Shown here piece after piece: positions 17,343-36,163 of a stretch of 64,000 bases of DNA (its first letter is position 1; each line of letters begins with the position of its first letter). The stretch is from Chryseobacterium mulctrae (GTDB lineage: Bacteria; Bacteroidota; Bacteroidia; Flavobacteriales; Weeksellaceae). The translations under genes were made by a program, and so were the position numbers. Location: the NCBI RefSeq assembly GCF_006175945.1, contig NZ_VAJL01000001.1, positions 3,853,001 through 3,917,000 on the forward strand. The letters are read 5' to 3'. The notes under the pieces were generated by a model that did no database searches, was not told the DNA's origin, and worked only from the letters and a program-made list of their open reading frames with translations.

Positions 17343-19754
17343 ATGCTACAAAACTGGCTCAAAATTGCCTTCATCAATTATAAAAAGAATTGGCTTTCCA
17401 CAATAATCAATTTGTTTGGATTGACGATTGGGCTTACCGGATTTATGCTCATTCTGATGCATTGGAATGATGAAGAATCTTTCGAAAAATGGAACCCAAA
17501 GAAAGATAATATTTATTATTTTCAGACGTACTACAAAAAAGATAACATTTATGGTGGTGCTATTTCGATACCTTTAGCTGAAAATGCATTGAAGCGAATC
17601 TCTGAAGTTCAGGATTATGTTTTGATGAGTGGTTCTGATATCGCTTATAAGATGACCACAAAAAACAAAACAGCTTATCAGGAAGGTGGGCTTGCTGCGT
17701 CGGAGAATTTTTTCAATCTGTTTCCATTCAAATTGGTGGCTGGAAGCTATAATGATGTTTTTAAAAATGATAACAATATTGCTATTTCTAATGTTGTGGC
17801 AAAAAATCTTTTTGGTAAAACTGAAGTTGCCGGCGAAACGATTAAAATTAATACTACAGATTATATTGTTACAGCGGTTTATGAGTTGCCGAAAGGAAAC
17901 AGCCAGATAAAACCAGATTTTATTTTCAAACCTGCAGAACAGCTGAAAAACGATAAGGAAGCTTGGGGTAATTTCAATTATGGGTGCTTTTTCTTGTTGA
18001 AAAAAGATGCAGACCCGAGAAGTTTTGAGAAAAAATTTCTTGATATCATTATGCTGCGTGCAAAAATAAATTCTAAGGGTGCAGGAGTAACACCTCAGCA
18101 ATTTATTGATACATATGGACCAACTGATTCATTGCTTACGCCGTTAGATAAAATAAAACTGCATTCAGAATCTACTTGGTTTGGGAAACCGGATTTTAAA
18201 TCATTAATGATTCTGTTTACACTTTCTGTTCTGATTGTCATTTTATCAGCCATCAATTTTATTAACCTAAAAACAGCACAAGCTTCTCAAAGAGCTAAAG
18301 AAATTGGGGTAAGAAAAGCAATTGGAAGCACAAAATCTAGTTTGGTTCTTCAGTTCCTGATGGAAACTTTTTTAATCTGTTTTGCTTCGTATCTTCTGTC
18401 TTTGGCTTTAACAGAGCTTCTTTTGCCAAGTCTCAACAGGTTTTATAACAAAGAAATTGTGATGAGCGATTGGCGCATTTACTTCTATTCGTTTGCGATG
18501 GTGGCTTTGGTTACGGTTGTTTCCGGGCTTATTCCAGCTTTGTATTTATCTAATTTCAAAGCGATAGAAACTTTAAAAGGAAATTTCGCAAGAAGTAAAA
18601 ACGGCGTTTGGCTGAGAAACGGAATCCTGACTCTGCAACTTATTATTTCTTCTTTTTTCATTATCGGTGGATTGATTGTTAATCAGCAGGTGAAACATAT
18701 GATGGATAAAGATTTAGGTTTTAGTGGAAAACAAATTTTTCAAATCAATTTTAATGAAGACAACGGAGAACCTTGGCTTAAATATGAAAGACTGAAAACG
18801 GAGATGGCAAAGATTCCCGGTGTAGAAAGTGTTTCATTTTCAGAAGCGCCTCCTGGAACCAATAATCAGAGCAGTTCAAATATGGATTATTTGAATACGA
18901 GTATTCAGGCTCGTCACGGCTCTATGGATCATAATTATCTTCAGTTTATGGGTGTTAAATTGCTTAAAGGACGTTGGCTTGACCCCAAATTATCATCAGA
19001 TACAATTAATAACGCCTTGGTAAATGAAGCTTTTCTAAGAAAATTTGGCTGGACAGTTGAGCAGGCAATGAAAAGAGAAGTAAGACCGGGATTTGATAAT
19101 AAAGCTTATCATATTGTAGGAATTACAAAAGATTTCAACATCAGAAGTTTGAAGAGCGAAGTAGAGCCAATGATATTTTTTCATTACAGAGAAACTACCT
19201 GGAAAAGATATAATGTAAACAATATTCAGTTGAAATTAAAAGCAGACGATATTGACGGAACTGTAAAAAGACTGAAAACGTATTGGAAAGATAATGCAGA
19301 ACCAGGTTATCCATTCAGCTCTTATTTTATTGATAAACAATTTGCTAAAACTTTTGAAACGTATCAGAAACAGCAGACGCTTTTCACGATTCTGAATGCA
19401 ATGGTTTTGATGGTGGCTTTACTCGGATTATTCGCTTTATCGTCATTAATGATTGAACAAAAACTAAAAGATGTCGCAATCAAAAAAACTTTAGGTGCAT
19501 CAGACGGAACTTTGATTGTAGGATTAACGAAACAATTCCTTTGGATTACCTTAATTGCTGTTCTGATAAGCATTCCAATCAGTTATTATCTGATGAATGA
19601 GTGGCTGAAAGATTTCGCCTACCGAATTGATATGCCGGTTTTACCATTCATTCTAAGTATGATTTTATTATTGATTTTAACATTTGCGGTGGTAAGTATT
19701 AAAGCCTACCAAGCTACAAAAGTGAATCTTGTGAAATATCTGAAATACGAATAA
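17343..19754 (+). CDS. ABC transporter permease, FtsX/MacB family (duplicated form)
   Basis: An 803-residue permease about twice the size of MacB's membrane domain. The N-terminal membrane segment (INLFGLTIGLTGFMLILM) is followed by a MacB_PCD-type periplasmic domain, a three-helix FtsX domain (about residues 285-415, with GVRKAIGSTKSSL in the cytosolic loop), a further membrane segment, a second periplasmic domain and a second FtsX domain at the C-terminus (VAIKKTLGASDGTL). This doubled architecture is common in Bacteroidota and needs only one chain per transporter half. It should work with the ATPase at 16516, the adaptor at 12153 and TolC at 19850. Confidence 0.92.
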   Translation: MLQNWLKIAFINYKKNWLSTIINLFGLTIGLTGFMLILMHWNDEESFEKWNPKKDNIYYFQTYYKKDNIYGGAISIPLAENALKRISEVQDYVLMSGSDIAYKMTTKNKTAYQEGGLAASENFFNLFPFKLVAGSYNDVFKNDNNIAISNVVAKNLFGKTEVAGETIKINTTDYIVTAVYELPKGNSQIKPDFIFKPAEQLKNDKEAWGNFNYGCFFLLKKDADPRSFEKKFLDIIMLRAKINSKGAGVTPQQFIDTYGPTDSLLTPLDKIKLHSESTWFGKPDFKSLMILFTLSVLIVILSAINFINLKTAQASQRAKEIGVRKAIGSTKSSLVLQFLMETFLICFASYLLSLALTELLLPSLNRFYNKEIVMSDWRIYFYSFAMVALVTVVSGLIPALYLSNFKAIETLKGNFARSKNGVWLRNGILTLQLIISSFFIIGGLIVNQQVKHMMDKDLGFSGKQIFQINFNEDNGEPWLKYERLKTEMAKIPGVESVSFSEAPPGTNNQSSSNMDYLNTSIQARHGSMDHNYLQFMGVKLLKGRWLDPKLSSDTINNALVNEAFLRKFGWTVEQAMKREVRPGFDNKAYHIVGITKDFNIRSLKSEVEPMIFFHYRETTWKRYNVNNIQLKLKADDIDGTVKRLKTYWKDNAEPGYPFSSYFIDKQFAKTFETYQKQQTLFTILNAMVLMVALLGLFALSSLMIEQKLKDVAIKKTLGASDGTLIVGLTKQFLWITLIAVLISIPISYYLMNEWLKDFAYRIDMPVLPFILSMILLLILTFAVVSIKAYQATKVNLVKYLKYE

Positions 19755-19835
19755 TGTTGGAAGTTAGATGATGGAGGCTTTGTGTTTTTGAGAGCCTAAC
19801 ATTCACTTCCAGCTTCCATCATCCATCTTCCATCC
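19755..19835. repeat. intergenic inverted-repeat element, same family as 17247-17329
   Basis: The left arm reads GGAAGTTAGATGATGGAGGC. The right arm, reverse-complemented, reads GGATGGAAGATGGATGATGG and continues AAGCTGGAAG. It fills the gap between the permease and TolC genes. The unit looks like a dispersed low-complexity element of this genome rather than a terminator, as no T tract follows. Confidence 0.6.
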
Positions 19836-19849
19836 AAAAATTTTCTACA

Positions 19850-21148
19850 ATGAAAAACCTATTCTTCATATTCATCATCAATCTTTTTCCGGCTCAGCAA
19901 AGTTGGACGCTCAAACAATGTCTTAACTACGTTTCGGCAAATCATCCTTTGGTAAAACAGGCAACAGTCAATATTCAGAAAAATGACCGACAGATTGCAG
20001 CTTCAAAAGAAATGTTGCTACCATCTGTGAATGCGGGTGTAAATCACAGCTACAGTTTGGGTTCGTCAATCAATCAGTCGAGTAATCAGAGAGAAACACT
20101 TAATACACAATACGATCAGGTGATTGCTCAGGCAAACATTGAATTGTTTAACTGGAAAAATTATTTAAATATTTCATTATCAAAACTCAATAAAAATGCG
20201 ACCACATATAAACTTAAACAGGCTCAGAATGAAGTAAAACTTAATGTAATTCAGAATTTTTTCACGTATCAGAACAGTAAAAGCTGGTTGGAGGTTTTAG
20301 AAACACAGATCGCAGGGATTGAAGAACAGATCAAACGCACTGAAAAAGAAGTGGAAATAGGAAGCCGTTCAAAAAGTGATATTTATGATATTAAAGCCAA
20401 CTTAGGAACTTTACAGGAACAATGGGTTTCGGCAAAAAACCAACGAGATCTGGCAAAAATAAACCTTCTGAATGCACTGAATATTATACAGGATTCTATA
20501 GATTTTGTGATGGATGATAATGAATCTTTAGTTCAGGAAGATTTTAACACTACTGATTTTACCAATAAATTAATAGAAAATAATCCGGCTTATAAAACTG
20601 TGATTGCAGAAATTAAAGCGCAGGAAAAAAATATAGATATTGAAAAATCGTACTATCTTCCAACATTGACCGGAAACTACAGTTGGTCAACTTTTTATAA
20701 TAAATCTTTAGGTAGCAATGCTCTTTCCAGTGCAAGTTTTTCTGATCAGTTTAGTCAGAATAAAAACCAGTCGATTTCTTTTGGTTTGAATATTCCAATT
20801 TTTAATAAATTCCAAATTAAAAATAATGTAGAAATAGCAAAATTGAATGTGATTAATTCCAACTACAGCAAAGATTTAATCATTAATGATTTAACAAAAT
20901 CGATCAATTCTATAAAAGCTCAGTTTCTGAATGCGCAGGAAAAATACAGTCTTTTGGAACTGAATTTCGAAAATCAAAAACTGTCTTTTCAGAAATCTGA
21001 AGAAAAATATAAAGAAGGTTTAATGGATGCTTATACATTTTTTGTGGTGAGAAATAACTGGCTTCAGGCGAACTATAATTTAATAAGCAGCAAAAATGAT
21101 GTCAATCAACAAGTAGAATTATTGAAGGTTCTTCAATCTGAATTTTAA
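19850..21148 (+). CDS. TolC-family outer membrane efflux protein
   Basis: A 432-residue outer-membrane channel subunit. A short signal sequence (MKNLFFIFIINLFPAQ) is followed by WTLKQCLNYVSANHPLVKQA, the usual TolC opening. Long helical hairpins rich in Gln, Asn and Lys alternate with two strand regions (LPSVNAGVNHSYSLGS and LPTLTGNYSWSTFYN), consistent with two OEP repeats. It is the last gene of the operon, closed by a strong hairpin terminator, and supplies the exit duct for the HlyD/ABC pump encoded upstream. Confidence 0.92.
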   Translation: MKNLFFIFIINLFPAQQSWTLKQCLNYVSANHPLVKQATVNIQKNDRQIAASKEMLLPSVNAGVNHSYSLGSSINQSSNQRETLNTQYDQVIAQANIELFNWKNYLNISLSKLNKNATTYKLKQAQNEVKLNVIQNFFTYQNSKSWLEVLETQIAGIEEQIKRTEKEVEIGSRSKSDIYDIKANLGTLQEQWVSAKNQRDLAKINLLNALNIIQDSIDFVMDDNESLVQEDFNTTDFTNKLIENNPAYKTVIAEIKAQEKNIDIEKSYYLPTLTGNYSWSTFYNKSLGSNALSSASFSDQFSQNKNQSISFGLNIPIFNKFQIKNNVEIAKLNVINSNYSKDLIINDLTKSINSIKAQFLNAQEKYSLLELNFENQKLSFQKSEEKYKEGLMDAYTFFVVRNNWLQANYNLISSKNDVNQQVELLKVLQSEF

Positions 21149-21365: not shown

Positions 21366-22847
21366 TCATGACAATAATTTGATGTTTTCAGATAAAATTT
21401 CAATGCTTTTATCCATTTCTGTCAGATTTAAATTTCCAAAACCCAGTCTCATTGCCGTAAGATTTTTGTTCTGATAAAGCAGGGTTTTAGGAATGAAAAG
21501 ATTGTTTTGAGCACAGTTTCTACTGAGTTGCATTAGATTTACATGGGTTTTCCATTTCATCCAAACCGCTAAACCTCCCGAAGGTTTTTGAAAATCAATA
21601 TATTCTCCCAAATTTTGTTCTAAAAGAGAGACAAAATAATCTCTTCTTTCCTGATAAGTTTTTAATGATTTTTTTAAATATCGGTTAATTTCACCTTCAG
21701 CAATCATTTCTCCCAAAACGTGTTCCATCAGAACGTCACCTTGACGGTCTATAATTCCCAAATATTTTCGCATTTCGATCATCAGATTTTCAGGAGCAAC
21801 GATGAATCCTGTTCGGAAACCGGGAACCAAAGATTTTCCGAAGGAGCCGATATAAATAACCATTCCGTTGGTGTCTGCGCTCGCCAAAGGAAGAATGGGG
21901 CTTTTGTCATAATGAAAATCATAATCGTAATCATCTTCTAAAATGATAAAACCAAATTCATTCGCAAGATTGAGTAGCTCTAATCTTCGTTTTGCACTCA
22001 AGGTAACTGTAGTAGGATAGTGGTGATGGGGCGTAAGATAAAGCATTCTTATTTTCTGCTTTTTACAAGCTTCTCTTACTTCTTCTACATTAATTCCTTC
22101 TTCATCAATCGAAATAGACTGGATGTTTACTCCTGCTTTTTGAAAGATCATGTTGACTGAGAAATAACTTAATTCTCCGACCAAAACAACATCTCCTGCC
22201 GAAAGTAAAATTTCAGAAACAATATAAATACTCATTTCCGTACTGCGTGTTATCAAAAGATTGTTTTTCGAAATCGGTAAACCTCTAGATACATTTAAAA
22301 GCTGCGAAAGATTTTTTTTGAAAAATTCACTTCCATCCTGATTGTATTGTCCTATTTTATGAGCTTTTCTTTTTAAAATAGAACTGTAAATTCTGGAATG
22401 ATGATCAATTTGCGTTAAACGGATATCAGGAACTCCATCGTTGAAAATGTATTCACAATCAGAATACTCAAACGGATTATCTAAAATGTTTGAAGTTTTA
22501 AAAGAAAAACCTGTCGATTTGGGGTAGTGTTCAAGGTTGTTCTTCTCAAAATCTTTAATTTGAAATGGTTTTTCCTGATTTTTTCCAATCACAAAAGTTC
22601 CTTTATTGGGAAGACTTTCTACCCAGCCTTGTGCAAACAATTCATCATAAGCAGCAACAATTGTATTTCTATGAACATTCAAAATAATGCTTAAAGCTCT
22701 TGTACCAGGAAGTTTTATGCCAAAAGGGAGAACACCTCTTTGTATAGCATTGATCAATTGATTAGAGATCTGCATGTAGATAGAAATCTCTGAATTTCTA
22801 TTGATTAAAATAAAACTCTCATAAGGAAACTCAACCGGACTATTCAT
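21366..22847 (-). CDS. MocR-type transcriptional regulator (GntR wHTH fused to class I aminotransferase-like domain)
   Basis: A 493-residue fusion. Residues about 12-88 are a GntR winged helix (YMQISNQLINAIQRG, LNVHRNTIVAAYDEL, NKGTFVIG). Residues about 130-490 are an aminotransferase-like domain with the EDDYD motif (304-308) and the PLP lysine K338 in SFGKSLVPGFRTGF, so PLP binding is expected. Known MocR proteins such as GabR and PdxR sense PLP or amino compounds and control divergent metabolic genes. This one faces the biotin operon across 65 bp. BioF and BioA are PLP enzymes whose products are amines, so a pathway intermediate or PLP could be the signal. The role in biotin control is inference. 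Confidence 0.9.
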   Translation of the reverse strand: MNSPVEFPYESFILINRNSEISIYMQISNQLINAIQRGVLPFGIKLPGTRALSIILNVHRNTIVAAYDELFAQGWVESLPNKGTFVIGKNQEKPFQIKDFEKNNLEHYPKSTGFSFKTSNILDNPFEYSDCEYIFNDGVPDIRLTQIDHHSRIYSSILKRKAHKIGQYNQDGSEFFKKNLSQLLNVSRGLPISKNNLLITRSTEMSIYIVSEILLSAGDVVLVGELSYFSVNMIFQKAGVNIQSISIDEEGINVEEVREACKKQKIRMLYLTPHHHYPTTVTLSAKRRLELLNLANEFGFIILEDDYDYDFHYDKSPILPLASADTNGMVIYIGSFGKSLVPGFRTGFIVAPENLMIEMRKYLGIIDRQGDVLMEHVLGEMIAEGEINRYLKKSLKTYQERRDYFVSLLEQNLGEYIDFQKPSGGLAVWMKWKTHVNLMQLSRNCAQNNLFIPKTLLYQNKNLTAMRLGFGNLNLTEMDKSIEILSENIKLLS

Positions 22848-22863
22848 GATATTAAAACTGGCA

Positions 22864-22895
22864 CTATCTAACCATCCGGTAATATACTACTTTTG
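22864..22895 (+). promoter_or_regulatory. -7 box of the biotin operon with an imperfect dyad just upstream
   Basis: TACTTTTG (22888-22895) fits the Bacteroidota -7 consensus TAnnTTTG, with the first ATG at 22913. Directly upstream, CTATCTAACC-ATCC-GGTAATATAC (22864-22887) is a dyad with 7 of 10 matching positions, where a repressor would block RNA polymerase. No good -33 TTTG was found. The dyad is a candidate MocR operator. Confidence 0.5.
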
Positions 22896-22912: not shown

Positions 22913-23536
22913 ATGGAATTTTATAATCTTATTGATAAGATCGTAAGCGATAATAAAGCTCATTCAAAATGGCTCAATACGCTGTCTTTTATGGAGAATG
23001 CGGGAGCGAGAAAAATTTCTGCTTGCGAACATCCTACAAACGTAAATTTAATTCAACTTAAACATGCATGTGAAGAGCATCGTCATGCGTATTACCTCAA
23101 AAAACAGATTGGGAAAATCAATGCAGAATGGTGTAAAACTTATGAAAGTAACGAGCTTTTAGCACCGATTGCAACAGGACAATATCTTCACGCTTTGGAT
23201 GTGAAAGCGTGTAAATATCTTCATGCTCATTTCGATTTAACAAAAGAAGAACTAAAATATGCGGCTTATCTTTTCGTGACGTATGCAATTGAAGTTCGTG
23301 CCGATGAATTATATCCTGTATATCAGGAAGTTCTTACCAAAACCAATTCAAAAGTAATGGTGAAATCTATTATACTGGAAGAAGAAGGGCATTTGGAAGA
23401 AATGATCCATCAATTGGATAAATTTTCTGAGAACTGGAAACCACACGCAGAAAAAATTATAGAAATTGAAAAAGATTTACATATTCATTGGGTTAATGCA
23501 ATAACTGAGGAAGTGATGAAACCTGATTATGCTTAA
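22913..23536 (+). CDS. putative ferritin-like di-iron oxygenase, first gene of the biotin operon
   Basis: A 207-residue soluble, mainly helical protein I cannot assign to a named family. It contains the complete ligand pattern of ferritin-like di-iron carboxylate enzymes: E28, E55xxH58 (EEHRH), E127 (AIEVRAD) and E157xxH160 (EEEGH). The spacings of 27, 72 and 30 residues are close to those of ribonucleotide reductase R2 and methane or toluene monooxygenase hydroxylases. The order Glu, ExxH, Glu, ExxH is that of a four-helix bundle. Its stop overlaps the bioF start by 8 bp, so it is translated with the pathway. Such enzymes activate O2 to attack unactivated C-H bonds. A role in making the pimelate chain is inference; a protective or regulatory role is possible. 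Confidence 0.65.
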   Translation: MEFYNLIDKIVSDNKAHSKWLNTLSFMENAGARKISACEHPTNVNLIQLKHACEEHRHAYYLKKQIGKINAEWCKTYESNELLAPIATGQYLHALDVKACKYLHAHFDLTKEELKYAAYLFVTYAIEVRADELYPVYQEVLTKTNSKVMVKSIILEEEGHLEEMIHQLDKFSENWKPHAEKIIEIEKDLHIHWVNAITEEVMKPDYA

Positions 23537-24638
23537 TCGTCTTCGTTATTTTCAGGAAGCTCTGGATAAAAGAAAAGAAGATCAAACCTTAAGAATATTA
23601 AAACCCAAATCTGAAGGTATCGATTTTTATTCTAACGATTATTTGGGATTGGCAAGAAATGAAGAGTTACAAAATTTATTGTTAAAACAGATTAATGAGA
23701 ATCCTCATTTGCTTTCAGGAAGTACCGGTTCGAGATTGATTAGCGGAAACAGTAAGGAAGTCATCGAAACAGAAAAATTTATTTCTAAAGAACATAAAAG
23801 TTCATCTTCATTGCTTTTTTCTTCCGGATACAATGCCAATTTAGCTTTATTTTCTACGCTTCCGAACCGTCATGATACAATTATTGTTGATGAAAAAATC
23901 CACCGATCCGTACATGATGCCTGTAAAATGTCGCATGCTAAAAAATTGAAATTTAAGCATAATGATATTGGTGATTTAGAACAGGTTTTAAAAAGACAAA
24001 AAGGAAATTGTTACGTTGCAATAGAGAGTCTGTACTCAATGGATGGAGATTTTGCGCCAATTCGTGAAATTGCAGAAGTTGCTAAAAAATACAAAGCTTT
24101 TTTGATTATAGATGAAGCTCATGCTTTTGGTGTTTTCGGATATGGTTTGATTGAAAAATATCAATTGCAAACAATGGTTTTGGCAACGGTAATTACTTAC
24201 GGAAAAGCGCTTGGTTCACATGGTGCAGCAATTTTATGTGATGAGGTTATCAAATCTTATCTTGTGAATTTTGCATCATCATTTATTTACACAACTGCAG
24301 CTCAGGATATTCAATGGAGAAGTATAAGAACTGGGTATGAATTTTTAAAAACAAACAAAAATCCATCTTGCAGTTTACAGCAAAACATCAAAGTTTTTCA
24401 TCAGCAAAATATAAGAACTCCGTCTTCAGAAAACAGTCCGATTCAGGCAGTTTTAATATCGGATAATCACTGTTTGAAAGATTTACAGGAAACTTTATTG
24501 AATGAGGGATTTTTAACCTATGCTGTTTTTAGTCCAACTGTAAAACAGGGAACAGAAAGACTGAGAATCTGCCTTCACAGCTTCAACACAGAAGAGGAAA
24601 TTATTGGTTTGACTACAATTATTAAGGGGTTTATTTAA
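23529..24638 (+). CDS. bioF: 8-amino-7-oxononanoate synthase
   Basis: This PLP enzyme condenses pimeloyl-ACP or -CoA with L-alanine to form KAPA, the first step of the biotin ring pathway. It has 369 residues with the class II aminotransferase fold: IDFYSNDYLGLA near the N-terminus, SGSTGSRLISGN, the DEAHAFGVFG motif and PLP lysine K226 in TYGKALGSHGAA. The gene overlaps the preceding di-iron protein gene by 8 bp and is followed, after a 103-bp spacer, by bioD. The position after the di-iron protein and before bioD and bioB supports KAPA synthase rather than another oxoamine synthase. Confidence 0.93.
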   Translation: MLNRLRYFQEALDKRKEDQTLRILKPKSEGIDFYSNDYLGLARNEELQNLLLKQINENPHLLSGSTGSRLISGNSKEVIETEKFISKEHKSSSSLLFSSGYNANLALFSTLPNRHDTIIVDEKIHRSVHDACKMSHAKKLKFKHNDIGDLEQVLKRQKGNCYVAIESLYSMDGDFAPIREIAEVAKKYKAFLIIDEAHAFGVFGYGLIEKYQLQTMVLATVITYGKALGSHGAAILCDEVIKSYLVNFASSFIYTTAAQDIQWRSIRTGYEFLKTNKNPSCSLQQNIKVFHQQNIRTPSSENSPIQAVLISDNHCLKDLQETLLNEGFLTYAVFSPTVKQGTERLRICLHSFNTEEEIIGLTTIIKGFI

Positions 24639-24741
24639 TGTGAAAAACAACATCATTTTTGTCATTCCGAAGGAATCTAAGCAAAGAATTTATTTTTAAT
24701 AGTTGAGATTTCAGCGGAATGGTCAATCAGAGGGATAAAAT
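24639..24741. repeat. bioF-bioD spacer with a CATTCC/GGAAT dispersed motif
   Basis: The spacer contains GTCATTCCGAAGGAATCT, a near-palindrome, and later GCGGAATGG in related style. A similar motif, TCATTCCTTCGGAA, occurs at 10442-10455 between the regulator and kinase genes. It looks like a dispersed intergenic element. No terminator or promoter is clear, so bioF and bioD may still be co-transcribed. Confidence 0.45.
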
Positions 24742-25395
24742 ATGGATACAAAAAAAGAAAAATTAGAAATACAAAACTTACAACAAAAAAAACTTTTCGT
24801 TACAGGCATCGGAACCGAAGTCGGAAAAACTGTTTGTTCATCAATACTCACAAAATATTTTAAAGCCGACTACTGGAAACCCATTCAGTCTGGAGATTTA
24901 CATTTTTCAGACAGTATGAAAATTAAAGAATGGGTCGGTGAAAATGTGGTCATTTACCCTGAAACATATAGATTACAACTTGCGGCGTCACCTCATCAGT
25001 CGGCTTTGGAAGAAGGAATTTTAATTAACAGTAATGATTTTAAACTTCCTGAAACTCAAAATAATTTAATTGTAGAAGGAGCAGGAGGATTGATGGTTCC
25101 AATTTCTGATGATGAATTCATTATTGATGTAATTGAAAAACTAAACCTTCCCGTTGCTTTGGTTGTGAGGAATTATTTAGGATGCATCAATCATACTTTA
25201 TTATCACTGATGACTTTAGAACAAAAAAATATCAAGTTGGAATATTTGATTTTAAATGGAGGGTTCCCAGAAGATACAGAAAGAATAATCTGTAAAAATA
25301 TTCAAAAGGAAATTAAAATTATAAGAATTCCTGACATAGAAAAAATAACAAAAGAAAATATAGAACGTATTACAAAACAATTAGAAAAAATATGA
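24742..25395 (+). CDS. bioD: dethiobiotin synthetase
   Basis: This ATP-dependent enzyme closes the ureido ring of DAPA with CO2 to give dethiobiotin. It has 217 residues, with P-loop GIGTEVGKT at residues 22-30, then WKPIQSGD, the substrate-binding region typical of BioD, and [10 protein letters not shown] for the second nucleotide loop. The N-terminus carries about 17 extra polar residues before the first strand. The last bases overlap the bioB start (ATGA), so translation of the two is coupled. The assignment is secure from motifs and neighbours. Confidence 0.93.
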
Positions 25396-26408
25396 TAGAT
25401 AAAACAAAATTGAGAAATGATTGGACAAAAAAAGAAATTGAAGAAATCTACAATCTTCCTCTTCTTGAATTGATTTATAAAGCAGCAACCGTTCACAGAG
25501 AATGGCACAATCCGGAAGAGGTACAAATGTCAACTCTTTTATCAATAAAAACAGGCGGTTGCGTAGAAGATTGTTCGTATTGCGGACAGGCTGCACGTTA
25601 TCACACCAATATTAAAGTTCAGGCATTATTGCCAACTGAAAAAGTAATCGAACATGCTCAAAAAGCAAAAGACAACGGCTCTTCTCGTTTCTGTATGGCT
25701 GCAGCTTGGCGAGAAGTACGAAACAACCGTGATTTTGATCGCGTAATTGATATGGTGAAAGGTGTAAATGAACTTGGATTGGAGGTTTGTTGTACCCTCG
25801 GAATGTTGACAGAAGAACAGGCTGTTCGTCTTGAGCAAGCTGGTTTGTATGCTTATAATCACAATTTGGACACTTCAGAGCAATATTATGAAGAAATTAT
25901 TTCCACAAGAACTTTTGATAATAGAATTAATACCATCAACAACGTGAGAAAAGCTGGAATTACAGTTTGTTCAGGCGGAATTATCGGTTTGGGGGAAACA
26001 CATGCAGACAGAATTTCAATGTTGTTGACATTATCAACGATGCCAAAACATCCCGAGTCTGTTCCAATTAATGCTTTGGCAAGAGTTGCAGGAACACCTC
26101 TTGAAAATAATGAAAAAACTGACACTTGGGAAATGGTAAGAATGATTGCTACCGCAAGAATTGTAATGCCTTCATCGATGGTTCGTCTGAGCGCGGGAAG
26201 AATTGAAATGACGGAATTCGAACAAGGTTGGTGTTTTATGGCAGGAGCAAACTCAATTTTTACAGGGGAAAGAGAAACTTTGTTGGTAACACCAAATCCG
26301 GGAGTTTCTGAAGATATGCAAATGCTGCAGACTTTAGGATTGAAACCGATGAAAAGACAATCTGAAAAAGTAATGGATCAATTTGAAACCTGGAAGGCTA
26401 ACTTCTAG
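25392..26408 (+). CDS. bioB: biotin synthase (radical SAM)
   Basis: This radical SAM enzyme inserts sulfur into dethiobiotin. It has 338 residues. The CxxxCxxC cluster is C57, C61 and C64 ([12 protein letters not shown]). The ligands of the second, sulfur-donating [2Fe-2S] cluster are visible as C101 ([10 protein letters not shown]), C133 or C134 (EVCCTLG), C193 (TVCSGG) and the Arg in VRLSAGR. All expected motifs are present, so the enzyme should be functional. It overlaps bioD by 4 bp, and bioA follows 26 bp later. Confidence 0.97.
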
Positions 26409-26434: not shown

Positions 26435-27700
26435 ATGAATTTACAAGAGCGAGACAAGGCTGTCAATTGGCATCCTTATACGCAAATGAAAACTGCAGAT
26501 GATGCTATTCCGATCGTTAAAGGAAAAGGAGTTTACCTTTTTGATGATAAAGGAAATAAATACATTGACGCCGTTTCTTCATGGTGGGTGACGCTTCACG
26601 GTCATGCGCATCCTTACATTGCACAACGAGTTTCTGAACAGTTAAATACTTTAGAGCAGGTTATTTTTGCGGGTTTTACCCATGAACCGGCGATTGAGCT
26701 TTCTGAAAATTTACTAAAACTTCTTCCTCAAAATCAGCAGAAAGTTTTCTATTCTGATAACGGATCGACCGCTGTGGAAGTTGCTTTGAAAATGTGTATT
26801 CAGCATGCTTACAACCAGGGAAAAGAAAAGACAAAAATTTTAGCATTTAAAAACGCTTATCACGGCGATACTTTCGGGGCAATGTCGGTGAGCGGAAGAA
26901 GTGTTTGGACGAAACCTTTCGGAGAAATGTTATTTGAAGTCATTTTTATTGATACTCCTACTTCTGAAAATATTGAAGATCTCAAAGCCCAAATTTCAAC
27001 GTATCAGGATGAAGTCGTTTGCTTTATTTACGAACCCCTCATTCAGGGAGCTGCAGGAATGCTGATGTACAATGCTGAAGATCTGAATGAATTGATGAAA
27101 TTTTGCAGATCAAAGGAAATTCTAATGATTCAAGATGAGGTTTTTACCGGCTTTGGAAGAACAGGGAAATTGTTTGCAGCTAATTATCTTTCAGAAAAGC
27201 CAGATATTATGTGTTTTTCTAAAGGTTTGACGGGCGGAACGATGCCTATGGGAATTACAACTTGTTCAAATGAGATTTACAATGCTTTTTTGTCTGATGA
27301 TAAATATAAAACGTTGTTTCACGGGCATTCTTTTACAGCAAATCCGTTAGCTTGTACTGCAGCTTTGGCAAGTATGGAGCTTTTATTAAATGACGAAACT
27401 CAACAAAATATTCAGCGAATTTCGGGGCAACATTTTAGTTTTTCAAAAGTTGTAAAAGAACATCCGAAAGTTGAAAACGTACGACAAACCGGGACTATTT
27501 TAGCCTGGGAAATTAAAAATGATCATAAAACTTCTTATTTTAATGAGATAGGAAAAAAAGTGTATGATGAATTTCTGTCGAGGGGAATTGTTATGCGTCC
27601 GTTAGGAAATGTGATGTATTTAGTTCCGCCTTATTGTATCAGTGCAGAAGAATTAAATTTTATTTATGAGAATATTTTAGAAGTACTAAATTATTTTTAG
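26435..27700 (+). CDS. bioA: adenosylmethionine-8-amino-7-oxononanoate aminotransferase
   Basis: This PLP enzyme converts KAPA to DAPA, classically with S-adenosylmethionine as amino donor. It has 421 residues of the class III aminotransferase fold: WHPYTQMKT at the N-terminus (the BioA-specific start), SSWWVTLHGHAHP, YSDNGSTAVEVALKM, the IQDEVFTGFGRTG strand with the PLP Asp, and PLP lysine K263 in FSKGLTGG. It closes the cluster di-iron protein-bioF-bioD-bioB-bioA. WHPYTQM favours BioA over other class III aminotransferases. Confidence 0.95.
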   Translation: MNLQERDKAVNWHPYTQMKTADDAIPIVKGKGVYLFDDKGNKYIDAVSSWWVTLHGHAHPYIAQRVSEQLNTLEQVIFAGFTHEPAIELSENLLKLLPQNQQKVFYSDNGSTAVEVALKMCIQHAYNQGKEKTKILAFKNAYHGDTFGAMSVSGRSVWTKPFGEMLFEVIFIDTPTSENIEDLKAQISTYQDEVVCFIYEPLIQGAAGMLMYNAEDLNELMKFCRSKEILMIQDEVFTGFGRTGKLFAANYLSEKPDIMCFSKGLTGGTMPMGITTCSNEIYNAFLSDDKYKTLFHGHSFTANPLACTAALASMELLLNDETQQNIQRISGQHFSFSKVVKEHPKVENVRQTGTILAWEIKNDHKTSYFNEIGKKVYDEFLSRGIVMRPLGNVMYLVPPYCISAEELNFIYENILEVLNYF

Positions 27701-29617: not shown

Positions 29618-32600
29618 ATGAGAAAAAATATTAATAAAGCTTTATGGGTTATAGCGATGGGAATTTCTGTAGGAAGCTTCAATGCACAGGGAATCCAAAA
29701 CTTTGAGACCTTTGGCGGAAATTTTTTCCCCCAAAGCCCTAATGCAACACCATTTGCCATTGCAGGGAAATATCCTGTTAATATGTATAAAGGAGTTCCT
29801 GTAATTGATATCCCCTTATTTAATACCAACAACTTTAGTGCTTCTCTAAGCTATAATGTAAAATCAGTAAAACCATCAACTATTCCAACGTGGGTAGGTT
29901 TAGGCTGGAATCTGGAAATTGGAGGCTCAGTTACCCGAATTGTAAACAGTGGGGTTGATGAAGTATATGTAAGTGGAGTAACTCCAAACAACAGATATTC
30001 TTATTTGGATAACTATAGTACTTTAGACAATCCCAATTGGGACAGTCTTCCGGCCCTGCAAAGTTATTATAATTCTAACTTACAATTTATCCTACAGGCA
30101 GAACCTAACTCAGTGCCGGATCCTGATGAGTTTATCATTAACATCGGTGGACTTACAGGAAGTTTTTATATGAATGAAAAAGGTAAATGGATTGGTAGAA
30201 CCCGTGATGGAAGAACATTAAAAATTGATCATCAATATAAATTTGATTTTGTATTAGCTGAAAAAACTATTTTAGGATCAAGCTACGCAGGAAATAAAAC
30301 ACACACGCTAAAAAGAACGTTGTATGGATTTATAATTAGTACAGATGATGGAACAAAATACATTTTTGGACTAGATGATAAAGCAGTGGAGTTTTCATCA
30401 ACTCCAAGTACTGTAGATGTAGCCTACAATTCCCATATAGTTCCTTCATCATGGAATGTTAATGAAATTATTTACCCTAGTGGAAAGAAGATTAAGTTTA
30501 CCTATGAGAGAGACGATAGAAGTGTTTTTGTCTCAAACAGATCTGGAAACAGGTCGTATTATACACAGGGCTTAACCTCAGGAGATGTAGGTAATTCTGC
30601 TTCGTCAGGAAGTTTATCTGCACTGCAATCTAATCGGCTAAATAATGTCTTTCTGAAAAAGGTAGAGGGGGAAGATTTTGTAATTAATCTTACGCGGTCA
30701 TTAGCAAATCAAAAGGAATATGAGCAGTTTGATGTCCCTACCAATCAATGGTCACCACCTTATACTCATCATATATCAAGCTATTATATGCATAAGCATT
30801 GGTATAAATTAGATAATATTAATATTACTGATAAGGCAGGGAGGATTATTAAAAATATAGTATTTAATTATAATAATGATCCTACAGATAGGCTTTTACT
30901 CAATAACGTTTCTATTAATAACATTGAAAATTACAGTTTTCAATATAATTCCCAGAAACTACCAAAACACATTTCTGATGCAACGGACCATTGGGGATAT
31001 TATAATGGAACGAGTTTTTTTGATTCGGGTATTAATTTAAATGTACCGCAGGATCAAATGAAAAATATACTTTTAAATACGTATCCCAATTATAAACTTC
31101 CTAATCTTAACTTAACAAAGGCTCAGACCCTCGAAAAAATAACCTATCCTACTGGAGGTAACACAACGTTTGAATACGAGCTAAATGATTATTCAAAATA
31201 TGGAGATAAAGATGTTAATGAAACTTATTTGAAAATAATACCTACGGGATCAAATCAATTTGCAGGGGGATTAAGGATAAAAAAAATCAAGTCTTGCAAT
31301 GAAAATAATAACTGTATTAACAAAACATATTCTTATTTAAATGATGATGGGGTAAGTTCCAGTGGCATTCTTCCATATAAACCGGTTTATCTCTTGGAGG
31401 GTAGTGATCCGGCATACAATTTAAGCTTTTGGGAATTTAATTATAATTCTTATCAGTCATTAAATAGTGAAGACAACTCAATATTATATAGTAAAATTAC
31501 TGAAGTTGATGACAATGGAGGTAAAAAAGAAACCTACTTCACAAATATAGATCAAGCTGATTATAAGGACAAATCAGGAAACAGATATTATGGATGGGTT
31601 GTTGCTCCATTATTTAAACAACTTCCATATCTGTCATTTTCATTAATGAGAGGTAAGCCTTTAAAAGAAATTGTCTATTCAAATACTAATAAAATTTCAG
31701 AAATCAATTATACCTATACTAAACAGACAGATTATCTGAAAGCTTATACTTTTAACTCAAAACAATTTGGGCAAACGCAATCAGCAGGACCGTACACGCA
31801 AGTAGGCGGTGTTTCTTACGGAGCTTTATTAGATGCATTTTTGGTCAATTTCAATACCAGTTTTTTAAGTCAGAAGAAGACGGTGTATGATAATATAGAA
31901 ACTATTGAGAATATTGATTACAACTATACATATAACGTTCCTACGCAAAAAACGATTACAAGTTCCGGTAATATAGATACAACAAACTATGGCTATGCCT
32001 GGAACAATAATAATCAACTGATGCTAAATGCTCATATGGTAGGAATTCCTTTGATTGAAGAAATAAAATCAAACGGAAAAACAAATTCAAAGGTTGAAAC
32101 AATATATCCTTCTTCGATACCTACAGCTCAAACAGGAAATTTGGTATTACCTACTGCAGTACTGTCTTATGATCTTCAAAATCCTACAGTTTCTTCTACG
32201 GAAGTTACTTATGATCAATACGACTCTAAAGGCAATATTTTGCAGTACACAACAAAAGACGGTGTTGTAACATCGATTATCTGGGGTTACAATTCTACCC
32301 AGCCCATCGCAAAAGTAACAGGTGTATCATATTCTGTAGCAAGCGCATTGGCAGCAGATATTATTTCGGCTTCAAATGGTGATATTGATGCGGGTACTGA
32401 GCAGACTTTAATAGGTAAATTAGATATTTTCAGAAAAGAGTCGGCATTACAAAATGCGCAAATATCTACTTATACGTATGATCCATTGATTGGAGTAACA
32501 AGCATTACTCCGCCTTCAGGAATCAGAGAGATTTATAAATACGATTCTGCCAACAGGTTAGAAAGTATCAAAGATATTAATGGCAAACTGTTAAAAGAAT

Positions 32601-32623
32601 TCAAGTACAACTACAAACACTAA
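29618..32623 (+). CDS. RHS/YD-repeat-like secreted protein (shell part without core)
   Basis: A 1001-residue exported protein with a signal peptide ending at about FNAQG. The N-terminal third resembles the beta-strand start of Bacteroidota RHS proteins (YPVNMYKGVPVIDIPLF, LSYNVKSVKPSTIPTWVGLG). The last third has YD-type repeats (TYDQYDSKGNILQYTT, YKYDSANRLESIKDING). The RHS core motif and a toxin tip are absent; the protein stops after a YD repeat. The next gene, 9 bp downstream, begins with DUF6443 and carries the core. The two could therefore be halves of one shell encoded as separate chains. Confidence 0.82.
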   Translation: MRKNINKALWVIAMGISVGSFNAQGIQNFETFGGNFFPQSPNATPFAIAGKYPVNMYKGVPVIDIPLFNTNNFSASLSYNVKSVKPSTIPTWVGLGWNLEIGGSVTRIVNSGVDEVYVSGVTPNNRYSYLDNYSTLDNPNWDSLPALQSYYNSNLQFILQAEPNSVPDPDEFIINIGGLTGSFYMNEKGKWIGRTRDGRTLKIDHQYKFDFVLAEKTILGSSYAGNKTHTLKRTLYGFIISTDDGTKYIFGLDDKAVEFSSTPSTVDVAYNSHIVPSSWNVNEIIYPSGKKIKFTYERDDRSVFVSNRSGNRSYYTQGLTSGDVGNSASSGSLSALQSNRLNNVFLKKVEGEDFVINLTRSLANQKEYEQFDVPTNQWSPPYTHHISSYYMHKHWYKLDNINITDKAGRIIKNIVFNYNNDPTDRLLLNNVSINNIENYSFQYNSQKLPKHISDATDHWGYYNGTSFFDSGINLNVPQDQMKNILLNTYPNYKLPNLNLTKAQTLEKITYPTGGNTTFEYELNDYSKYGDKDVNETYLKIIPTGSNQFAGGLRIKKIKSCNENNNCINKTYSYLNDDGVSSSGILPYKPVYLLEGSDPAYNLSFWEFNYNSYQSLNSEDNSILYSKITEVDDNGGKKETYFTNIDQADYKDKSGNRYYGWVVAPLFKQLPYLSFSLMRGKPLKEIVYSNTNKISEINYTYTKQTDYLKAYTFNSKQFGQTQSAGPYTQVGGVSYGALLDAFLVNFNTSFLSQKKTVYDNIETIENIDYNYTYNVPTQKTITSSGNIDTTNYGYAWNNNNQLMLNAHMVGIPLIEEIKSNGKTNSKVETIYPSSIPTAQTGNLVLPTAVLSYDLQNPTVSSTEVTYDQYDSKGNILQYTTKDGVVTSIIWGYNSTQPIAKVTGVSYSVASALAADIISASNGDIDAGTEQTLIGKLDIFRKESALQNAQISTYTYDPLIGVTSITPPSGIREIYKYDSANRLESIKDINGKLLKEFKYNYKH

Positions 32624-32632
32624 AACACCAAT

Positions 32633-35600
32633 ATGAAAAAAATACTCATCCCTATAGGAGCTTTATTTTTATGTGGCTCAACACATGCACAATTAAGCCC
32701 AACAGAGAATTATGTTTATTCAAAAACATATCTTGACTATGATGCAAATAATCAGTCTACTAAAACCTCTGAAACCGTTCAGTATTTCGATGGTTTAGGT
32801 AGACCTAAACAGACTGTCAATATCAAAGCATCTCCGCTGCAGAGAGACTTAGTCTCTCATATCACATATGATGGATTTGGGAGACAGGCTTTGGATTACC
32901 TCCCTGTTCCGCAAAATGGAACAGCTAATGGAGCTATCGTAACCAACCCTTTAGCTAATGCTCCTAATACACCTTATGGCTCAGAAAAAATCTATGCAGA
33001 GAAAGTCTTTGAAAACTCCCCTTTAGACAGGGTTTTAGAACAAAAACAGGTTGGTACAGCATGGAATGATAAGCCTGTAAAATTCAATTATGACGCCAAT
33101 ATTGCTGGGGAAGTAATGAAGTTTACCACTGCAACAACTTGGGAGAACAATGCAACTAAGTCAATTGCTTTTAATGGTGGAACTTATGGTACTGCTCAAC
33201 TCTATAAAAATACGGTTACGGATGAAGATGGAAACAAAACCATTGAATTCAAAAACGGTCAAGGTCAGGTACTTCTTGTGAGAAAGGTACTGAGTGCTAC
33301 TGAAAACGCAGATACTTACTATGTTTACAATGAGTACAATCAGCTTACATGTGTAGTTCCGCCAAAGGCTATAAGAGATTTGGAAGATCAAGGTTTTGCA
33401 GACGGTGAAGAAATGTATTCGGATGTTTTAAGTCATCTATGCTACGAGTACCGATATGACAGCCGAAACAGATTGGCAGAAAAAAAACTTCCTGGAAAAG
33501 GCTGGGAATATATGGTGTATGATAAAGCAGACCGATTGGTAGCAACACAAGATGCAGTTATGAGTCCATCACACAAATGGCTGTTCACTAAGTATGATAA
33601 GTTTGGCAGGGTTGTATATACGGGAATCTCGATTGATAATGGCGACAGAAATGCTGTGCAGACCTGGATTACGAATACCTACGGAATTAATACAGAAACG
33701 GCGGGAACATATACTCAAAGCGGTATGCAGATACCCTATGGTAATACTGCATATCCTCAAAATATAGAAAGTATACTCTCAGTTAATTATTATGATACCT
33801 ATCCTCCATATACACCATCATTTACTCCTACAGTGACTAATCTACCATTGTTGACGGATGATTCAAGTTTAAATATCAGTACCAAAAGTTTACCAGTTGC
33901 ATCTTATGTGAAAAACATTGAAGATGATGAGTGGACAAAGAATTACACTTGGTATGATATAAAAGGAAGAGCGATCGGAAGTCATTCTATCAATCATTTG
34001 GGAGGCTACACGAAAACGGAATCTGAGCTTGATTTTTCAGGAACTCCCAAGATGGCAGTAACCCGACATAAAAGACTGGATGGTGATACCGAAAGAGTGA
34101 TTACAGAAAATTTCACTTACGATCATCAAAACAGATTATTAACCCATACCCATCAGGTTGATAATAATGCTGTGGAATATCTTACTCAGAATAAATACAA
34201 TGAACTTTCTCAGTTAGAGTATAAAAAGGTTGGCGGAACAAGTTCAAACATACCTTTGCAGCAGGTAGATTATGCTTATAACATCAGAGGTTGGATGACG
34301 CAGATTAATAATCCGAATGACTTAAATAATGGAGACCTTTTCGGATATGCAATAAAATATACCAATCCAGAAAATACAAATCTTTCAACAGGTAGATTCA
34401 ATGGTAATATTGCGGAGATTGACTGGAAAACATCAACAAATCCTAATGATAACAAACGTAGATATTCTTACACTTATGACGGACTAAACAGACTCCAACA
34501 AGGAATCTACTCAGAACCCGGATCATCACTTATCAGCAATGATTATTATAACGAGCAGCTTACCTATGACCTCAATGGAAATATTGCTACTTTAAAAAGA
34601 TTTTCACAACCTTATTCAGGGACCATTGCCGAGAAAATTGATGATTTGATTTACAATTATACAGGCAACCGTTTGGATAAAATAACACTTCCTGCAGGTG
34701 TCGTGAATAACTATTCAGGGTACAATGCTTTACAGAATGTTATTACTTATGATTCCAATGGAAATATGATTAAGCATTTGGATAAAGGTATTCAGAAGAT
34801 TACCTACAACTTTCTGAATTTACCCACCTATATTGGAGATGAAGCACTGCCATTCCCAAAAGGATCTGGGTATATATATAGAGCTGATGGTGCAAAATTA
34901 AAGAAAACATACTCCTACAAAAAGATTGGTGATTTTGGGACAATAAAATATAGCCAGAAAGTAACAGATTATCTCGATGGTTTTCAGTACTTACTAGAAG
35001 GGTTCTCGCTCACATGTATTGGATGTCCTGAACCTTCTCCAACTTTACAGTTTGTACCAACATCAGAAGGCTATTTTGATTATGTAAAAAATAAGTATAT
35101 TTACAATTACAGCGATCATTTGGGAAATACAAGGTTAAGTTATTTTCACAATGGCAGCAGCATAGAAGTTCTTGAAGAAAACAATTATTATCCTTTTGGG
35201 TTGAAGCATGAAGGTTATAATGCTTTGGCGGGAAATACCAATTACAACTACAAGTACCAAGGACAAGAATTACAGGAGACTGGTTTTTACTCGTTTAAGT
35301 GGAGAAATTATATGCCCGATGTGGGAAGATTCTTTAATGTTGATCCGCTGTCAGAAAAGTATACATATCAGTCTCATTATAATTTTTCTGAAAATAAAGT
35401 TACGTCTCACAGAGAACTAGAAGGATTAGAAGCCGTTCCTGCCGATAATTTTAATAAGAATCAATCTACTTTGGTTGTCTTAGGTTTAGGAAGAGCCAAT
35501 GGACCAAAGGGAGATGGTGTTGGTAGTGGAACAAATACATTATACTCTAACCTTCCCAAGGATCTTCAAACAGATGGAGCTTTGGCAAGTCTTCAAAACA

Positions 35601-36163
35601 ATTTAAGTAGCAATATAGCCGTTGCAACTTATACAGGAACCGATAGTGGCTTAGCTGGTACTCATATGGCTGAAACTATAGGAAACTATAGAAGTGTAAA
35701 TCCTGATGGTAAGGTAATAATGATAGGACACAGTTTAGGGGCTACAGACGTTCTTCAAGCTGCTAATTCTACCACAGAAAATATAAATTTAGTTCTAACA
35801 ATGGAGCCTGTCTCTGTAAATGCAGGAGGTGGCGTTGCAACTAGCGGAAGTCCATATTCTAGAAGCTTAGGTGCAAATGTTCAGAATATTATTAGCTTAA
35901 GTGCTGATCCCAATATGTTTACTGGTGGTGGTGGTTCAAAGACTGTTAAAGGTCAAAACTCTATAAAGACAACAATGCCTGGAACAAAACACGATAATAT
36001 TGATGATTCTATGGCTCCTTATTTAAAGCATTTAATTCAACGAACCGATCAAGGCGTTAATCCAGTAAAATGGTTTCAAAATGTTAATTGGAATAATTTT
36101 ACACCTCAGTCAAATGTTCGAACAGGAAATCAAGAAAAGAAAGGAACTGGATCGGGTTCATAA
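32633..36163 (+). CDS. DUF6443/RHS-core polymorphic toxin with C-terminal lipase-like domain
   Basis: A 1176-residue exported protein (signal MKKILIPIGALFLCGSTHAQ). DUF6443 occupies the N-terminus (YVYSKTYLDYD, VQYFDGLGRPKQTV). YD repeats follow to about residue 820 (YDSNGNMIKHLDKGIQKITY). The RHS-associated core is at about 860-925 (NYYPFGLKHEGYN, YKYQGQEL, DVGRFFNVDPLSEKY). After the core a variable tip of about 245 residues carries IGHSLG with Ser1034, and Asp1092 and His1120 as plausible triad partners: an alpha/beta-hydrolase of lipase type. The family norm is a conserved shell with an exchangeable toxin tip. The neighbour at 36174 is the likely immunity gene. Phospholipid as target is inference. 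Confidence 0.85.
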   Translation: MKKILIPIGALFLCGSTHAQLSPTENYVYSKTYLDYDANNQSTKTSETVQYFDGLGRPKQTVNIKASPLQRDLVSHITYDGFGRQALDYLPVPQNGTANGAIVTNPLANAPNTPYGSEKIYAEKVFENSPLDRVLEQKQVGTAWNDKPVKFNYDANIAGEVMKFTTATTWENNATKSIAFNGGTYGTAQLYKNTVTDEDGNKTIEFKNGQGQVLLVRKVLSATENADTYYVYNEYNQLTCVVPPKAIRDLEDQGFADGEEMYSDVLSHLCYEYRYDSRNRLAEKKLPGKGWEYMVYDKADRLVATQDAVMSPSHKWLFTKYDKFGRVVYTGISIDNGDRNAVQTWITNTYGINTETAGTYTQSGMQIPYGNTAYPQNIESILSVNYYDTYPPYTPSFTPTVTNLPLLTDDSSLNISTKSLPVASYVKNIEDDEWTKNYTWYDIKGRAIGSHSINHLGGYTKTESELDFSGTPKMAVTRHKRLDGDTERVITENFTYDHQNRLLTHTHQVDNNAVEYLTQNKYNELSQLEYKKVGGTSSNIPLQQVDYAYNIRGWMTQINNPNDLNNGDLFGYAIKYTNPENTNLSTGRFNGNIAEIDWKTSTNPNDNKRRYSYTYDGLNRLQQGIYSEPGSSLISNDYYNEQLTYDLNGNIATLKRFSQPYSGTIAEKIDDLIYNYTGNRLDKITLPAGVVNNYSGYNALQNVITYDSNGNMIKHLDKGIQKITYNFLNLPTYIGDEALPFPKGSGYIYRADGAKLKKTYSYKKIGDFGTIKYSQKVTDYLDGFQYLLEGFSLTCIGCPEPSPTLQFVPTSEGYFDYVKNKYIYNYSDHLGNTRLSYFHNGSSIEVLEENNYYPFGLKHEGYNALAGNTNYNYKYQGQELQETGFYSFKWRNYMPDVGRFFNVDPLSEKYTYQSHYNFSENKVTSHRELEGLEAVPADNFNKNQSTLVVLGLGRANGPKGDGVGSGTNTLYSNLPKDLQTDGALASLQNNLSSNIAVATYTGTDSGLAGTHMAETIGNYRSVNPDGKVIMIGHSLGATDVLQAANSTTENINLVLTMEPVSVNAGGGVATSGSPYSRSLGANVQNIISLSADPNMFTGGGGSKTVKGQNSIKTTMPGTKHDNIDDSMAPYLKHLIQRTDQGVNPVKWFQNVNWNNFTPQSNVRTGNQEKKGTGSGS

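Follow-up and report, generated by a model that had tools for sequence, protein, structure and literature searches.

The biotin locus of the window

The stretch of DNA analysed here, referred to as the window, comprises 64,000 nucleotides of Chryseobacterium mulctrae (contig NZ_VAJL01000001.1, positions 3,853,001 to 3,917,000) from a genome of 4.87 Mb. It carries a cluster of biotin genes that opens with an open reading frame (ORF) at 22913-23536, and this ORF is almost certainly bioE, encoding the Chryseobacterium-type ortholog of BioE, a ferritin-like di-iron oxygenase known from the literature. The locus is composed of the following features:

21366-22847, minus strand: putative bioL, MocR-family repressor (GntR helix-turn-helix and class I/II aminotransferase domain), 493 amino acids, divergent from bioE
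22834-22895, no strand given: operator/promoter-like element in the bioL-bioE gap, starting within the first bioL codons
22913-23536, plus strand: bioE (by the assignment argued below), ferritin-like di-iron oxygenase, 207 amino acids, ATG start, predicted ligands E28, E55, H58, E127, E157 and H160
23529-24638, plus strand: bioF, 8-amino-7-oxononanoate synthase (best NCBIfam match TIGR00858, 294.7 bits, below the cut-off of 426.45)
24742-25395, plus strand: bioD, dethiobiotin synthase (TIGR00347, 116.6 bits, cut-off 83.3)
25392-26408, plus strand: bioB, biotin synthase (TIGR00433, 397.8 bits, cut-off 225)
26435-27700, plus strand: bioA, adenosylmethionine-8-amino-7-oxononanoate transaminase (TIGR00508, 562.8 bits, cut-off 405)

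All five genes from bioE to bioA lie on one strand, and the 3' end of bioE overlaps the start of bioF (23529) by 8 bp. The original prediction, which was made from the window sequence, had described exactly this arrangement of a 207-residue protein heading bioF-bioD-bioB-bioA, and the ORF coordinates agree with it.

Identity of the first gene of the operon

The biology of BioE is already known and was published in 2025, in a genus named by its authors. A paper on BioE that appeared in the Proceedings of the National Academy of Sciences in 2025 (122, e2501226122) reportedly describes an oxygen-dependent acyl-chain cleavage route to a pimeloyl-thioester. According to PMC12915131, BioE is a non-heme di-iron oxygenase that splits long-chain acyl groups at C7-C8, so that pimeloyl-acyl carrier protein (pimeloyl-ACP) or pimeloyl-coenzyme A (pimeloyl-CoA) is formed; the first report of the enzyme, from the same group of authors, concerned Elizabethkingia and Chryseobacterium. 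The bioE gene of Elizabethkingia meningoseptica replaces BioC-BioH in Escherichia coli and its removal results in biotin auxotrophy; activity, O2 requirement, effects of the ligands and repression by BioL are reported for the Elizabethkingia and/or Chlamydia proteins, and iron content for the Chlamydia psittaci protein CpBioE (PMC12915131).

The six ligands given for the E. meningoseptica protein EmBioE are E26, E53, H56, E125, E155 and H158, and those for CpBioE are E41, E68, H71, E140, E170 and H173 (PMC12915131). The ligands of the window protein correspond to the EmBioE numbers plus 2 and to the CpBioE numbers minus 13, with the shift being constant for all six residues. Two E. meningoseptica proteins (P0127 and P0128) each possess 16 of the 17 published EmBioE residues that were compared at their published numbers, the missing one being K46, which is Gln in both. 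The window protein aligns with P0128 without gaps over 198 residues (5-202 of 207) at 64% identity, and it possesses 15 of the 17 residues at the shifted positions, the exceptions being Q48 and G89, where K46 and R87 are published for EmBioE. By this alignment it falls within the authors' own search rule for BioE, under which a protein must be more than 40% identical to EmBioE, with 85% coverage (PMC12915131). It also resembles EmBioE in its position at the start of the operon and, in related loci, in the divergent bioL gene. Of the proteins from the 80 named loci that were retained, the one from Chryseobacterium balustinum comes closest, with 96% identity. With CpBioE, compared by published residue numbers, the window protein shares 17 of 23 published residues but has H93 instead of D106; CpBioE further differs in having no BioL, in using acyl-ACP only and in being only about 40% identical to EmBioE (PMC12915131).

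We confirmed on the translated ORF the residues that the original prediction had listed, namely E28, E55xxH58, E127 and E157xxH160 with spacings of 27, 72 and 30. When the protein was shuffled 20000 times, the exact spacing pattern appeared in 2 of the shuffled sequences, whereas a loose ferritin-like pattern was found in 3067. Because the loose pattern is so common in shuffled sequences, the motif alone is weak evidence, and we dropped its spacing as proof in favour of conservation and the published numbering. None of the six residues varies across the aligned rows (200/200), which consist of 184 database proteins, 15 rows from an alignment that already contains the window, and a further entry for the window. 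The residues are also in register in 80/80 named loci. Being the best matches of a few searches, these rows and loci are close relatives rather than a wide sample. This conservation turns the six-residue motif into strong evidence.

The original prediction proposed a structure prediction and a search against di-iron folds. The predicted fold of the window protein is a di-iron-type helical bundle, so that the predicted structure displays the ferritin-like di-iron oxygenase fold expected of a BioE. Its nearest neighbours are aldehyde-deformylating oxygenase and MiaE. The family libraries gave the protein no name: the Pfam scan returned a single chance match and no ferritin or rubrerythrin family over the gathering score, and the NCBIfam scan gave no family. 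Sequence searches of solved structures, with either the protein or a 15-row profile, gave no match up to E 10. A search with an E threshold of 0.001 gave 3764 relatives, not all of which are necessarily BioE, and the database names of these proteins (120 were listed) vary between hypothetical, rubrerythrin and bacterioferritin.

Distribution, other pimelate routes and the regulator BioL

Among 392 Bacteroidota genomes, a BioE match was present in 16 and a strong match in 15; the weak one (G051, E 5.8e-4 over 77 residues) was left out of the counts of strong matches and loci. With only the best candidates per genome being scored, bioB exceeded its cut-off in 15/15 genomes with strong BioE versus 181/392 overall, and BioC in 0/15 versus 64/392. 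A mutual exclusion of BioE and BioC is attractive, but this difference is not significant and we rejected the idea. Of the 181 genomes in which bioB exceeds its cut-off, at least 102 (181-64-15) show no strong BioE match and no BioC above the cut-off, and some of them have BioC-like matches not far below it. In the locus L114, bioB is the sole bio gene recognised by eye in 15.7 kb. Within the family, BioE matches occur in 23 of 120 genomes and 6 of 33 genera, one match being a fragment of 115 amino acids (L113) that has no bio genes in its stretch.

The gene neighbourhood was inspected in fetched stretches that reached up to 1.5 or 7 kb to either side of bioE. At least one of bioF, bioD, bioB and bioA was present in 95/95 loci, and a divergent bioL in 88. 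These loci are not independent: they comprise 15 from the Bacteroidota survey, including the window itself (L002), and the 80 named ones, which are the best 80 of 505 from one scan (76/80 are titled Chryseobacterium), and L003 and L037 apparently come from the same contig. In the loci L098-L113, at least one late bio gene lies near bioE in 15 of 16. The original prediction would have been refuted by a lack of co-occurrence with bio genes in other genomes; these loci show such co-occurrence. Published BioE is encoded with late biotin genes and commonly with bioL, and in the window bioFDBA follow downstream and bioL is divergent. Four genomes of one other genus (L011-L014) show a different order: bioE lies behind bioA and not before bioF, and bioB is located elsewhere.

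The original prediction had pointed out that neither bioC nor bioH lies nearby. Across the whole genome, no BioC over the family cut-off was found (best 78.9 bits versus 184.95, with 29/29 candidates scored), and no BioH either (best 77.4 bits versus 206.95). There were no genome matches to BioW (PF03744) or to P450 (PF00067), for both of which the positive controls matched, and none to BioG (PF04301), but here the control genomes gave none as well. BioI of Bacillus subtilis is a heme P450 and thus differs from a di-iron BioE. We see no sign of the BioC-BioH, BioW or BioI routes in the genome sequence, with BioZ, BioJ, BioK and BioV not having been searched for.

The divergent gene at 21366-22847 fits the published MocR repressor BioL. 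Its product contains the PF00392 and PF00155 domains, that is, the helix-turn-helix and the aminotransferase-like domain of BioL. R50 is located at the exact published EmBioL number, and K338 matches K340: it lies in a GSFGKSL stretch that is the same as that around K340 in 5/5 Elizabethkingia-type BioL proteins, a label derived from L106, which matches an E. ursingii protein at 98%. The bioL-bioE gap contains an element with the arms ACCGGA (22834-22839) and TCCGGT (22875-22880). A CTGG block lies between the arms, and a TACTTTTG box similar to the -7 consensus is located at 22888-22895. The blocks CCGGACTA, TGG and CCGG occur exactly, in this order and spacing, in 86 of the 88 gaps extracted between bioL and bioE, which represent 80 distinct sequences, and in none of 88 shuffled ones; TTTTG follows the three core blocks in 78 of the 88 extracted gaps. 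The five Elizabethkingia-type loci have similar blocks with small differences. On visual inspection the element can also be made out in L108 and L109, whose fetched stretches yielded no bioL, and L102 lacks the first two blocks; a DNA site is therefore favoured over a trace of bioL coding sequence. We consider the element at 22834-22895 a putative BioL site.

Two BioL-controlled promoters, bioEFD and bioBA, are reported for Elizabethkingia, and the BioL-DNA work used palindromic probes of about 50 bp from the bioE and bioB promoters (PMC12915131). In contrast, the window has a single bioE-F-D-B-A run and one operator-like element; a second full copy was sought in the window and not found. When up to 5 mismatches are allowed, the 21-base core is present once in 78 of the 80 loci L018-L097, absent in one and accompanied by a second, weaker copy in one. 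A short dyad (ATTCC-GAA-GGAAT, 24660-24683), of which the window has one copy, lies in the 103 bp gap between bioF and bioD. The bioF-bioD distance between alignment ends ranges from 2 to 332 bp across 78 loci, and because of this variation an inserted repeat in the gap is possible. Outside the biotin genes, 17343-21148 encodes a permease of the MacB/FtsX type and, after it, an outer membrane efflux protein that ends close to bioL, and 29618-36163 contains two long ORFs with RHS-repeat matches, one of them with DUF6443.

Proposed function and alternative explanations

If the window protein acts like its published orthologs, the di-iron site held by E28, E55, H58, E127, E157 and H160 would activate O2, and BioE would cleave long-chain acyl-ACP or acyl-CoA at the C7-C8 bond, giving pimeloyl-ACP or pimeloyl-CoA. 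BioF, BioA, BioD and BioB would then convert the pimeloyl thioester into biotin, and the divergent MocR protein BioL would keep the operon repressed through a site between bioL and bioE. The window protein can be expected to have the published BioE activity. The central proposal of the original prediction, an oxygen-dependent di-iron enzyme that makes the pimeloyl chain by cleavage, matches the published function of BioE, and the window protein agrees with that family in sequence, residues, fold and context.

One feature of the window protein weighs against this assignment. EmBioE and CpBioE have a basic residue on the carrier-docking face (R87 and K102, respectively), and the window protein has Gly89 at this position; moreover, complementation by CpBioE was lost when any one of six such surface residues was mutated (PMC12915131). 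The authors do not name the basic residue as a defining feature of BioE. At position 89, a basic residue (Arg or Lys) occurs in 190 of the 198 non-window rows (Ser in 3, Gln in 3, Phe in 1 and 1 not displayed), and the 80 named loci have Arg in 57, Lys in 5, Ser in 17 and Gln in 1. In these relatives a loss of the charge is tolerated, with Gly occurring only in the window among the relatives checked. One could assume that the window encodes a carrier-preference variant of BioE, in which Gly89 has changed the preference between ACP and CoA and bioEFDBA is controlled as one unit by a single BioL element. This is unlikely, and the carrier-variant reading of Gly89 is weakened because Ser is found at this position in 17 of the 80 named loci.

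Two further explanations would deny the protein a role in making the pimeloyl chain. The original prediction offered as its alternative a ferritin- or rubrerythrin-like protein that shields the oxygen-sensitive BioB, which would agree with the predicted di-iron-type bundle, the shared operon with bioB and the names rubrerythrin or bacterioferritin that some sources give to relatives. However, the window protein matches no Pfam ferritin or rubrerythrin family and only 5 of 15 relatives touch PF02915 (best E 0.0032), and the complementation and auxotrophy reported for the E. meningoseptica protein speak for a biosynthetic function. We therefore regard a protective protein as highly improbable, and this function is not needed. 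The gene might also encode a same-fold di-iron oxygenase acting on another substrate (aldehyde, tRNA or a fatty acid to be desaturated) and merely be located in the operon. The nearest folds, aldehyde-deformylating oxygenase and MiaE, and the deviation from published BioE at position 89 would be in line with this. Yet identity to these solved members, which act on other substrates (the oxygenase being the cyanobacterial one), amounts to 13-16% in the listed rows versus 64% to the E. meningoseptica protein, and a bio gene lies nearby in every one of the 95 loci, so that an enzyme with such a substrate has hardly any probability.

Assignment to BioE supersedes the label unassigned that the original prediction had given to the protein. 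A gene without any Pfam or NCBIfam family over the cut-off can now be named with confidence as that of BioE, the enzyme that opens a recently described route to biotin. Naming it helps the annotation of its many relatives, even if not all of the 3764 are necessarily BioE.
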